Shown piece after piece: positions 4,416 through 26,691 of a DNA stretch of 64,000 nucleotides. The translations under genes were made by a program, and so were the position numbers. The DNA is from Aureimonas sp. ME7 (GTDB lineage: Bacteria; Pseudomonadota; Alphaproteobacteria; Rhizobiales; Rhizobiaceae), in assembly GCF_903970965.1 (NCBI RefSeq), contig NZ_CAJCKW010000001.1:186001-250000 (forward strand), written 5' to 3'. The notes under the pieces are model-generated. The model was given only the letters and a program-made list of their open reading frames with translations, did no database searches and was not told the origin of the DNA. Position 1 is the first letter of the stretch. Every line of letters starts with the position of its first letter.

Positions 4416-7272
4416 AACCGACTACGGCACGCCGGCGCGCCGCGCCGAGACGCAGGTGACGCTCACCATCGACGGCGAGACGATCACGGTTCCCGCCGGC
4501 ACGAGCCTGATGCGGGCCGCCGCCGAGATGGGCACCAAGATCCCGAAGCTCTGCGCGACCGACTCGCTCGAGCCCTTCGGCTCCTGCCGCATGTGCCTCG
4601 TCGAGGTGGAAGGCATGCGCGGCACGCCGGCCTCCTGCACCACGCTGGCGGCGCAAGGCATGGTGGTGCGCACCCAGACCGACCGGATCGCCAAGCTGCG
4701 GCGGGGCGTGATGGAGCTCTACATCTCCGACCACCCGCTGGACTGCCTGACCTGTTCGGCCAACGGCGACTGCGAGCTGCAGGACACGGCCGGAGAGGTC
4801 GGCCTTCGCGACGTGCGCTACGGCCAGCACGGGGAGAACCACGTCCACCGCCATGAAGCGGGCGGGCCGAACCCGCTCTTCATGGAAAAGGACCTGACGA
4901 ACCCGTACTTCCAGTACGACCCGTCGAAATGCATCGTCTGCTCGCGCTGCGTGCGGGCCTGCGAGGAGGTGCAGGGCACCTTCGCGCTGACGATCGCCGG
5001 GCGCGGCTTCGACAGCCGCGTCTCGCCCAGCCAGGGCGAGGACTTCTTCTCCTCTGAATGCGTCTCCTGCGGCGCCTGCGTCCAGGCCTGCCCGACCGCG
5101 ACCCTGATGGAGAAGTCGGTGGTCGCCATCGGCGTGCCGGAGCATTCCAAGGTCACGACCTGCGCCTATTGCGGCGTCGGCTGCTCGTTCAAGGCGGAGA
5201 TGCGGGGCGAGGAGTTGGTGCGAATGGTGCCCTGGAAGGACGGCAAGGCGAACCACGGGCATTCCTGCGTCAAAGGCCGCTTCGCCTACGGCTACGCCAA
5301 CCACCGCGAGCGCATCCTGAACCCGATGATCCGCGCCTCGACCTCCGAGCCCTGGCGCGAGGTGTCCTGGGAGGAGGCGATCGCCCACACGGCGTCCGCG
5401 TTCCGCCGCATCCAGGGCAAATACGGGCGCAACGCGGTCGGCGGCATCACCTCCTCGCGCTGCACCAACGAGGAAACGTTCCTCGTCCAGAAGCTGATCC
5501 GCGCGGGGTTCGGCAACAACAACGTCGACACCTGCGCCCGGGTCTGCCACTCGCCGACCGGCTACGGGTTGAAGACGACGCTCGGCACCTCGGCCGGCAC
5601 GCAGGACTTCGATTCGGTGGAGGATGCCGACGTCATCCTGGTGATCGGCGCCAATCCGACCGATGGGCATCCGGTCTTCGCCAGCCGCATGAAGAAGCGC
5701 CTGCGCGAGGGCGCTCAGCTGATCGTCGTCGATCCGCGCCGCATCGACCTCGTCAAGACGCCCCATGTCGAGGCCGCGCACCATCTGCCGCTGCGCCCCG
5801 GCACCAACGTCGCCGTCCTCACCGCCATGGCGCACGTGATCGTCACCGAAGGACTGGTGGACGAGGACTACGTTCGCACGCGTTGCGACCTCGAAGCCTT
5901 CGGGGCCTGGGCCGAGTTCGTGTCCGACGCTTCGCGCTCGCCGGAAGCCGTGGAGCCGATGACGCGCGTGCCGGCCGACGAGCTTCGCGCGGCCGCCCGC
6001 CTTTATGCCACCGGCGGTCGTTCGGCGATCTACTACGGGCTCGGCGTCACCGAGCATTCCCAGGGCTCCACCACCGTGATGGCGATCGCCAACCTCGCGA
6101 TGGCGACCGGCAATATCGGCGTGCGCGGCGCCGGCGTGAACCCGCTGCGCGGGCAGAACAACGTGCAGGGCGCCTGCGACATGGGCTCCTTCCCGCACGA
6201 ATTGTCGGGCTACCGCCATGTGTCGGACGACACGGCGCGCGCCCTCTTCGAAGGCATGTGGGGCGTCCGGCTCGACGACGAGCCGGGCATGCGCATTCCC
6301 AACATGCTGGACGCCGCCGTCGCCGGCGAGTTCAAGGGCATCTACATTCAAGGGGAAGACATCCTTCAGTCCGACCCCAACACGCGCCACGTCACGGCGG
6401 GGCTCGCCGCGATGGAATGCGTCGTCGTCCAGGACCTCTTCCTGAACGAGACGGCGGTGCATGCCCATGTCTTCCTGCCGGGCTCGACGTTCCTGGAAAA
6501 GGACGGCACCTTCACCAATGCCGAGCGCCGCATCCAGCGCGTGCGCCGCGTGATGGCGCCGAAGAACGGCTACGCCGACTGGGAGGTGACGCAGCTTCTC
6601 GCCAATGCCCTCGGCCTGCCGATGAACTACGCGCACCCGTCCGAGATCATGGCCGAGATCGCCTCGCTCACCCCGACCTTTGCCGGCGTATCCTACGAGC
6701 GGCTGGAGACGGAATCCCTGCAATGGCCGGTCACCGACAAGGCGCCGGCCGGCACGCCGCTGATGCACCTCGAAGGCTTCGTGCGCGGCAAGGGCCTCTT
6801 CGTGGTGACGGAATACGTTCCGACCGACGAGAAGGTCGGCCCGCGCTTTCCGCTGCTTCTGACCACCGGCCGCATCCTGTCGCAGTACAATGTCGGCGCG
6901 CAGACGCGGCGCACCGACAACGTCCTGTGGCACGAGGAGGACCGGCTGGAGATCCACCCGCACGACGCGGAAGAGCGGGGCATCCGCGACGGCTCCTTCG
7001 TCAAGGTGGCGAGCCGGGCGGGCGACACGACGCTGCGCGCGCTTCTGACGACGCGCGTCGCGCCGGGCGTCGTCTACACGACCTTCCACCATCCGCTGAC
7101 GCAGGCCAACGTCGTCACGACGGACTTCAGCGACTGGGCGACGAACTGCCCGGAATACAAGGTGACGGCGGTTCAGGTCTCGCCCTCCAACGGGCCGACC
7201 GACTGGCAGGAGCGCTATTCGAGCTTTGCCGAAACATCGCGCCGCGTGGCGCCCGCGGAGCCGGCGGAATGA
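4399..7272 (+). CDS. fdsA: Formate dehydrogenase alpha subunit (Mo/W-bis-MGD, Fe-S)
   Basis: 957-residue catalytic subunit of NAD-dependent formate dehydrogenase, oxidising formate to CO2. In order: an N-terminal [2Fe-2S] ferredoxin domain (cysteines in PKLC, SCRMC), a NuoG-like His/Cys cluster region (DCLTCSANGDCELQ), two [4Fe-4S] motifs (CIVCSRCVRACEE and CVSCGACVQACPT), the cluster motif CAYCGVGCSF of the molybdopterin domain, and the likely metal-ligand cysteine in RVCHSPTGYGL, so a cysteine and not a selenocysteine enzyme. A C-terminal molybdopterin dinucleotide-binding domain begins near residue 810. The ATG at 4399 overlaps the preceding small gene; upstream codons in frame belong to that gene's region. 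Confidence 0.95.
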   Translation: MSLVSETDYGTPARRAETQVTLTIDGETITVPAGTSLMRAAAEMGTKIPKLCATDSLEPFGSCRMCLVEVEGMRGTPASCTTLAAQGMVVRTQTDRIAKLRRGVMELYISDHPLDCLTCSANGDCELQDTAGEVGLRDVRYGQHGENHVHRHEAGGPNPLFMEKDLTNPYFQYDPSKCIVCSRCVRACEEVQGTFALTIAGRGFDSRVSPSQGEDFFSSECVSCGACVQACPTATLMEKSVVAIGVPEHSKVTTCAYCGVGCSFKAEMRGEELVRMVPWKDGKANHGHSCVKGRFAYGYANHRERILNPMIRASTSEPWREVSWEEAIAHTASAFRRIQGKYGRNAVGGITSSRCTNEETFLVQKLIRAGFGNNNVDTCARVCHSPTGYGLKTTLGTSAGTQDFDSVEDADVILVIGANPTDGHPVFASRMKKRLREGAQLIVVDPRRIDLVKTPHVEAAHHLPLRPGTNVAVLTAMAHVIVTEGLVDEDYVRTRCDLEAFGAWAEFVSDASRSPEAVEPMTRVPADELRAAARLYATGGRSAIYYGLGVTEHSQGSTTVMAIANLAMATGNIGVRGAGVNPLRGQNNVQGACDMGSFPHELSGYRHVSDDTARALFEGMWGVRLDDEPGMRIPNMLDAAVAGEFKGIYIQGEDILQSDPNTRHVTAGLAAMECVVVQDLFLNETAVHAHVFLPGSTFLEKDGTFTNAERRIQRVRRVMAPKNGYADWEVTQLLANALGLPMNYAHPSEIMAEIASLTPTFAGVSYERLETESLQWPVTDKAPAGTPLMHLEGFVRGKGLFVVTEYVPTDEKVGPRFPLLLTTGRILSQYNVGAQTRRTDNVLWHEEDRLEIHPHDAEERGIRDGSFVKVASRAGDTTLRALLTTRVAPGVVYTTFHHPLTQANVVTTDFSDWATNCPEYKVTAVQVSPSNGPTDWQERYSSFAETSRRVAPAEPAE

Positions 7273-24894: not shown

Positions 24895-26358
24895 TCAGCG
24901 CCGCCCGAACCATTGTCCGAGCGTCAGCGTCGACGCTTCGTCCGGGGGCGAGCGCCAGAATTCGGCGACCTCGGCCCGCCAAACCCGGAACGAGAAGCGG
25001 AAGCACCAGCGCAGGTGGGCACGAAGCTCCCGGTCGGGATGGGCGAGAGCGCGCGCGAGCGCACGGGGACGCGCGTGAACGGCCAGCTCCATCAGCTTCA
25101 CCAGGCAGAAGATCGCTGAGGCCGACAGGTGGCGCGAGGCGAGCAACTGGTTGCGATAGTCCCATTTGGCGAGATCGCGCTGGATCACGACGCGCCGCTC
25201 GTTGTCCGCCGTCCAGTCCGACCAGCGATGGGGCGTGACATACATCGCGTTCAGGAGATCGGGATCGTAGAGCGAGACCTGACGGATGGCGCGGGCGTAG
25301 TCGGCAAAGCGCTCCTCCTCGAAGCCGACGATATGGCCGAGCATGGACAGGATGCCGTGCTCGCGCAGGAGCGCCACCGCGCGCTGGTCCTCCATCGTGG
25401 TGGAGCCTTTGCGGATGGCCCGGAGCGTTGCGGGATCGGTGGTCTCAATCCCCATGAGGACGCAGATCATGCCGGCGCGCTTCATCAGGGGCAGGAGGTC
25501 GGCGTCGCGCACGATGTCGGTGGCGCGGATCGTGGCGAACAGGCGCACGGGCACGTTCTCGTCCGCCATCGCCTGGAGGAACTCGCGCCACAGGCGCTTG
25601 GAGGAGGTCGGGTTCTCGTCCGCCAGATCCACGAAACGGACGCCGTGGTTGCGGTGGAGGGAGGCGATCTCGGCGGCGACCGCTCGCGGGTCGCGGTAGC
25701 GCCACTTCGTCCAGAACTGGTACTGGCCGCAATAGGCGCAGGAATGCGGGCAGCCGCGCGAGAACTGGACGATGGCCGCGCGCCCGAGCCCGAAGCACTG
25801 GTAGAGGTCCCAGTTCTCGATCAGCTCCCAGCCGACGCGCCATTCGTCGAGGCGGCGCAGCATGGGTGCCGGCGCGTTGGTTTGGATGCGGCCGCCTTCG
25901 CCGCGGAAGGTGATGCCGGAAACGCCGGCAAGCGGCGCGCCCTCCAACAGGGCTTCCACCAGCGCCGATGCCACGGCCTCGCCTTCGCCGCGCACCACGA
26001 TATCGACCGCCGGTTCCTCGGCAAGGACGTCCTCGGCGTGATAGGTCGGATAAACGCCGCCATAAACGGTGACGACCTCCGGCAACGCTCGCTTGGCCGC
26101 GCGCATGACCTCGAGCGAGGCGGGGTGGGCGGGCGTCGAGCCGGCGTGTCCCGTCATCACGACGCCCGGCGCGAAGTCGGCGATCGCCCGCTCGATCTCC
26201 TCGGGCGAAAGATGGCCGCGTTCGGCATCCAGGAGGCGGACCTCGTGGCCGGCGTCGATCAAGGGGCCGCCGAGGCACAGGAGGCCGAAGGGAATCTGGT
26301 GCCCGACGCCGCGCGAGGTGAGCGAGAGGTAGGGCGGATTGACGAGGAGGATGCGGAT
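24895..26358 (-). CDS. BchE-like cobalamin-binding radical SAM protein with non-standard start
   Basis: An N-terminal B12-binding domain is followed by a radical SAM core with RGCPHSCAYCGQ (CxxxCxxC) and a BchE-type C-terminal region. BchE makes the fifth ring of bacteriochlorophyll anaerobically, but no photosynthesis genes are nearby and many non-phototrophs carry relatives of unknown role. The conserved start, RILLVNPPYLSL, is fully encoded, yet its expected first codon at 26356-26358 is ATC rather than ATG, with GGGAG ten bases upstream. No ATG, GTG or TTG lies between it and the upstream stop. The first standard start is TTG 26262, which would remove the first beta strand of the B12 domain (455 instead of 487 residues). 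Confidence 0.75.
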   Translation of the reverse strand: MRILLVNPPYLSLTSRGVGHQIPFGLLCLGGPLIDAGHEVRLLDAERGHLSPEEIERAIADFAPGVVMTGHAGSTPAHPASLEVMRAAKRALPEVVTVYGGVYPTYHAEDVLAEEPAVDIVVRGEGEAVASALVEALLEGAPLAGVSGITFRGEGGRIQTNAPAPMLRRLDEWRVGWELIENWDLYQCFGLGRAAIVQFSRGCPHSCAYCGQYQFWTKWRYRDPRAVAAEIASLHRNHGVRFVDLADENPTSSKRLWREFLQAMADENVPVRLFATIRATDIVRDADLLPLMKRAGMICVLMGIETTDPATLRAIRKGSTTMEDQRAVALLREHGILSMLGHIVGFEEERFADYARAIRQVSLYDPDLLNAMYVTPHRWSDWTADNERRVVIQRDLAKWDYRNQLLASRHLSASAIFCLVKLMELAVHARPRALARALAHPDRELRAHLRWCFRFSFRVWRAEVAEFWRSPPDEASTLTLGQWFGRR

Positions 26359-26385
26359 TTTGGAAAAACTCCCGGCGAACGTCTT

Positions 26386-26655
26386 TCAGGCTCTTGCGCG
26401 CGAGGTCGCTCGGACAAGGCCGAACGCCGCAAGGCCGCCCAGGATCGCGACGAGGGTTCGGGCGGCGAGCGAACCCGCCGGATCCGGCAGGCCAGGCGAG
26501 AGCAAGGCGTAGAGGAGCGTCGCGATCGCAACCCCGATGGCCTGGGAGCGGACGCTCGAAAGGGCCGCGATCCGGCGAAGAAGCCAGGCGATCAAGGCGC
26601 CCAGAAGCGCCGCTCCCAGAACAAGTCCCAGGATGCTTCCGATCAGCGAAGCCAC
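26386..26655 (-). CDS. Small inner-membrane protein
   Basis: 89 residues from GTG 26655, which has a strong AGGGAGG site five bases upstream. Three hydrophobic segments (LIGSILGLVLGAALLGALIAWLL, GVAIATLLYALLSP, LVAILGGLAAFGLV) make it an integral membrane protein. Function unknown. It ends 27 bases before the radical SAM gene in the same frame and direction, so the two probably share a message. Confidence 0.6.
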   Translation of the reverse strand: MASLIGSILGLVLGAALLGALIAWLLRRIAALSSVRSQAIGVAIATLLYALLSPGLPDPAGSLAARTLVAILGGLAAFGLVRATSRARA

Positions 26656-26691
26656 CGACACCTCCCTTGCCCGCTCGCCCTCTTGGGTAGC

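Follow-up and report, generated by a model that had tools for sequence, protein, structure and literature searches.

The gene of a B12-binding radical SAM protein in Aureimonas sp. ME7 appears to start at a conserved near-cognate AUH codon, here ATC, where initiation would be inefficient and probably kept in check by IF3, in the manner of infC, sigR, cvfC1 and ccpN; weighing the sequences compared, we give this reading a probability of roughly 0.8. The codon itself, its recurrence in other genomes, the lack of canonical starts and the protein-level selection just downstream of it are observed directly in the window, the 64,000-nucleotide stretch of DNA that was analysed, and in its relatives.

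The ATC codon and its reading frame

The initial annotation had pointed to an ATC where an ATG is expected, to a GGGAG ten bases in front of it, and to the lack of any ATG, GTG or TTG back to the stop of the preceding gene. All of this was confirmed on the minus strand, where the in-frame TGA (26388-26386) lies ten codons 5' of the ATC (26358-26356) and is separated from it by nine sense codons (AAG ACG TTC GCC GGG AGT TTT TCC AAA), none of them a canonical start. Downstream of the ATC the frame continues with CGC ATC CTC CTC GTC AAT CCG CCC TAC and stays open for 487 codons until a stop at 24897-24895. The first canonical in-frame start is, as had also been claimed, the TTG at 26262-26260, and when all frames are considered from -60 to +14 around the ATC, a TTG at -59 is the sole canonical triplet (Table 1).

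Table 1. Features at and around the proposed start codon, with positions in the window.
Feature	Position	Strand	Remarks
B12-binding / radical SAM protein gene	24895..26358	-	487 codons and stop, read from ATC
ATC, proposed near-cognate start	26356..26358	-	Five close homologues have ATG in this column, two have ATC or ATT
GGGAG, Shine-Dalgarno-like	26369..26373	-	Ten bases 5' of ATC; duplex -6.6 kcal/mol
In-frame TGA, which also ends the small hydrophobic ORF upstream	26386..26388	-	
TTG, first canonical in-frame start (codon 33)	26260..26262	-	
Conserved N-terminal part of the B12 domain (codons 2-32)	26263..26355	-	Lost under canonical gene calling

First codons of the homologues

Close relatives were obtained from a scan of genome contigs (L002 and L003), and genome searches contributed further homologues (L004, L005, L024-L026 and L029) together with 18 distant rows (L006-L023). 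Because L024 is the L002 genome again, identical around the start, it was counted once, giving eight distinct close genes with the window's included, seven of which (all except the broken L003) share 61-91% pairwise identity. A near-cognate ATH codon stands at the same place in three of these eight, namely ATC in the window, ATT in L002 (Rhizobiales bacterium, G1188) and ATC in L004 (G311), their genomes belonging to one family and two genera; the first codon is ATG in L003, L005, L025, L026 and L029. None of the 18 distant rows has an ATH at the start codon (15 ATG and 3 TTG), and the two plasmid relatives looked at among the 11 matched begin with TTG (Sphingobium) and ATG (Allocoleopsis). 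The 'bchE' CDS of the Sphingobium plasmid (L042:5995-6115) is annotated from 6115, while in-frame homology begins at TTG 5995-5997, and judging from this alignment the deposited protein seems to be without 40 N-terminal residues.

In-frame stops were found 10, 6 and 12 codons 5' of the ATH codon in the window, L002 and L004, respectively, and no ATG, GTG or TTG lies between that stop and the conserved N-terminus in any of the three. Neither do the relatives begin at the equivalent of TTG 26262, the outcome that had been named as speaking against an ATC start; the close homologues have either ATG or ATH in the ATC column.

Selection on the N-terminus

Judged from pairwise codon comparisons, codons 2-32 (31 codons) are under strong purifying selection, with synonymous sites near saturation: pN and pS were 0.060 and 0.78 between the window and L002, 0.068 and 0.81 between the window and L004, and 0.030 and 0.75 between L002 and L004, and in the rest of the three ATH genes pN was 0.098-0.174 and pS 0.70-0.75. 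Within codons 2-16, each pair of ATH genes has synonymous changes in 8-11 codons and nonsynonymous changes in 1-2. The low pN against near-saturated pS over codons 2-32 indicates that, in each of the three genes, selection acts here on the protein that this frame encodes. Near-cognate codons common to the three within the first 34 codons occur at codons 1, 3 and 22; of these, it is codon 1 that stands in the column of the ATG of the sister genes and is preceded by a Shine-Dalgarno (SD) sequence.

A shorter protein translated from a downstream canonical codon, TTG 26262 in the window, is what a mechanical ORF caller picks, but we consider it very unlikely that this is the protein made. The first downstream canonical starts are found at non-homologous positions (codon 33 in the window, 50 in L002 and 18 in L004), the codons skipped are those under protein-level selection, and the SD sequences are weaker there than at the ATH codon (-5.0, -2.6 and +0.7 kcal/mol in the same order, compared to -6.6, -10.0 and -7.0 kcal/mol), the energies having been calculated with what we take to be the anti-SD sequence. 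Canonical start calling would accordingly remove 32, 49 or 17 residues from the three proteins.

Shine-Dalgarno sequences and upstream flanks

Each of the three ATH codons has an SD sequence at a workable spacing, although that of the window is the least convincing, being only moderate and at a long spacing. Positions within the gene with an SD sequence at least as strong as that at the ATH codon numbered 34 of 390 in the window, 8 of 390 in L002 and 13 of 390 in L004. The five ATG genes gave -4.0, -7.1, -5.9, -1.6 and -5.9 kcal/mol, so stronger SD sequences at ATH than at ATG amount to a tendency in few genes with overlapping values, the ATG sister L025 (-7.1) equalling two of the ATH genes. 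In pairwise comparisons in register, only 7, 10 and 11 of the 30 bases 5' of the ATH codon are identical, showing that the codon is kept where the flank is not. Two short stretches, cacttgacggttgt followed by gtggaacgtc, are common to L002 (1380-1412) and the start-proximal region of L004, where they sit approximately 65-112 bases 5' of the start and are perhaps part of a promoter.

Upstream frames

A small hydrophobic ORF (26386-26661, with a GTG start placed by eye) precedes the gene in the window, shares its frame and terminates 27 bases 5' of the ATC; a Pfam search with it gave one match, which was below the cut-off. Ribosomes might conceivably enter the gene by readthrough of the TGA, by reinitiation after this ORF or by frameshifting, and some observations lend themselves to such a route: the shared frame in the window, an in-frame ATG 13 codons 5' of the TGA of L002, and, in every ATH gene, another frame that passes the start without a stop and contains upstream canonical starts (+1 in the window, with TTG at -173, -74 and -59; +2 in L002, with TTG at -109, -94 and -70; both offsets in L004, which thereby shares one with L002). 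Entry of this kind nevertheless has only a slight chance of being correct, since L004 has TAG as its upstream stop where the window and L002 have TGA, the upstream stretches are dissimilar, and the window has no canonical start upstream in the +2 frame, so that a single offset cannot serve all three ATH genes. Translational coupling to the small ORF could rather assist initiation at the ATC than replace it.

In gene neighbourhood, G311 resembles G1188, and G037 resembles G1179. Among the matches listed, and aside from the gene itself and the ORFs that overlap it, similarity of neighbours to the window was confined to a single GGDEF/EAL gene that matched weakly, and we therefore draw no function from the context. 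In four syntenic neighbour pairs of G311 and G1188, six of the eight genes start with ATG and two with TTG, which is not a strong control, since only canonical starts are available to the caller.

Distribution and history of the ATH state

The codon counts and a tree of 24 proteins left out L024 (the same as L002), L003 with its broken frame, and L023, the match of which breaks off at residue 382, close to the end of a contig. In this tree the ATH genes of the window, L002 and L004 cluster in a single group (support 76/64) that needs a single change, a number as low as this arising in 1 of 500 label shuffles, and the group was recovered in 72% of 200 bootstrap trees; clade support is thus modest, and the ATG gene L026 could fall inside the group. 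A C-terminal tree made from the downstream piece of L003 and 12 of the 24 rows also returned the ATH group (76/81; 3 of 500 shuffles as low) on an unresolved backbone. In the homologue of Pseudoroseomonas deserti (L003, 1501-2957) a frame change near residue 154 splits the gene, either through a sequencing error or because the gene is broken. The simplest reading of the trees would be a single origin of the ATH state, which was then kept with ATC and ATT swapping, and two separate origins are also conceivable.

Of 21 genomes in the window's genus, one has the gene, and searches at E 1e-160 of 397 genomes of the order and 385 of the class, both samples of larger groups, returned the window's own only. 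The genera of G1255 (1 of 1 genome) and G1196 (1 of 17) did not enlarge the close clade; genus g18 gave 5 of 39 genomes at 1e-160, in the family of G1196, 2 of 249 sampled genomes matched at 1e-120, and a family search at 1e-80, also on a sample, gave 21 of 394.

This patchy distribution, the broken frame of the ATG relative L003 and the reported inefficiency of ATH starts (PMC13009471) would suit a decaying or silent gene that has lost its start codon. However, all three ATH genes have full-length frames with an intact cluster motif, and in codons 2-32 as well as in the remainder pN is low while pS is near saturation. Decay would not be expected to last over such a divergence, which leaves this explanation hardly any weight. 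A base-call or assembly error that hides a true ATG deserves equally little credit: only one assembly of the species was compared, but an error in the window alone, which can be imagined, would leave L002 and L004 unexplained, and three errors at one codon, with ATT and ATC in two other genomes that have different flanks, are not credible. The comparison with close relatives, which had been proposed as a check, found ATT in L002 and ATC in L004 at the same codon, each with its own SD sequence and without canonical starts, as is expected neither from a base-call error nor from a fresh mutation. Hence, out of the three possibilities first offered (a rare ATC start, a start-codon mutation or a base-call error), the relatives largely favour the rare ATC start and speak against the other two.

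The protein and its resemblance to BchE

Both the B12-binding (73.2 bits) and the Radical_SAM (74 bits) domains of Pfam were matched above their cut-offs, and the CxxxCxxC motif is found at residues 203-210, placing the window protein among the B12-binding radical SAM proteins; the motif is likewise present in L002 and L004. The distant homologue L013 has no match to CxxxCxxC, and the other 23 of the 24 rows tested have one. The protein had been described as BchE-like, and this holds as a resemblance, BchE (the anaerobic cyclase of Mg-protoporphyrin ester) being its best NCBIfam match (residues 2-455, E 3.6e-128), but not as an assignment, as the score of 428.5 bits stays under the 481.35 bits of the BchE equivalog TIGR02026. 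The structure predicted from an alignment of two rows was of poor quality (mean pLDDT 47.8), and the strand that it places at residues 2-6 was given no weight; none of four PDB sequence matches extends to the N-terminus of the window protein.

Proposed initiation at AUC and the probable role of IF3

With the AUH start as the preferred reading, a ribosome positioned by the SD sequence would begin at AUC with initiator tRNA, giving a protein that begins with formyl-Met and keeps the B12-binding domain whole. AUC would pair at the first two bases and mismatch at the third, making initiation inefficient; IF3 should restrain it, and the gene would be held at low output. We infer initiation at AUC, its low efficiency, its dependence on IF3 and any benefit of low output. 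The evidence for the ATH state comes from three independent sequences in the searched genomes, and the enzyme clade would have kept this state, with ATC and ATT swapped, in at least three species of two genera.

IF3 is described as destabilising initiation complexes on codons other than ATG, GTG and TTG, and infC as encoding this discriminating factor and autoregulating through its own start (PMC5472188). The homologous first codon of infC is ATT in all six genomes that we inspected (the window's own, G311, G1188, G037, G1179 and G1177). In G1177 (L034) no canonical start lies between it and the upstream stop, and the frames of the remaining five extend further and contain canonical codons at least 20 codons upstream, so that the ATT there rests on homology. 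From the ATT in all six, it is probable that IF3 in these bacteria permits AUH starts to be used, albeit weakly. Near-cognate starts in Staphylococcus aureus are reported to give approximately 10% of the AUG reporter output in poor medium, and the ccpN start up to 30% in rich medium (PMC13009471).

A more speculative proposal, which we put forward tentatively and think rather doubtful, is that the AUH start acts as a translational governor, with IF3 discrimination setting the output of this Rhizobiales B12 radical SAM clade. If true, a costly and probably oxygen-sensitive enzyme would be tied to the state of IF3 and the ribosome, and hence to translation capacity, as the metabolic-enzyme counterpart of infC autoregulation.

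Comparison with known near-cognate starts

To our knowledge, conserved starts other than ATG, GTG or TTG have been described for only a few genes of bacteria. One non-infC gene, pcnB of Escherichia coli, is reportedly limited by its AUU start; it resembles the window gene in this respect, but encodes another protein. Replacement of an ancestral AUG by AUU was given for 1 of 61,358 starts in one reconstruction (PMC5622118), and among the matches listed in the openly licensed literature, titles and the openings of abstracts contained no report of a radical SAM or BchE gene with an unusual start. The conserved near-cognate starts of cvfC1 in Staphylococcus (AUU) and ccpN in Staphylococcus and Bacillus (AUA) are similar to that of the window gene and are described with strong SD sequences (PMC13009471). 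In contrast, they belong to Firmicutes genes, one for a small protein and one for a regulator, and were demonstrated by ribosome profiling and reporters, whereas the window gene is known from its sequence. A misannotated near-cognate start is the common feature with sigR of Streptomyces, reported as genus-wide, with a strong SD sequence and with repression by IF3 through its GTC start (PMC5472188); unlike the window gene, sigR encodes a sigma factor, and its GUC start is genetically proven. As for infC (AUU, AUC or AUA), its product is IF3, which autoregulates (PMC5472188), whereas the window product is an enzyme for which feedback is not evident; on the other hand, both keep a near-cognate ATH start across species, and infC does so with an ATT in the window's own genome. 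Conserved near-cognate starts are already known as a kind, of which the present gene appears to be a further member, adding an enzyme gene of Alphaproteobacteria that has ATC and ATT variants and, in its ATG sister genes, natural controls.
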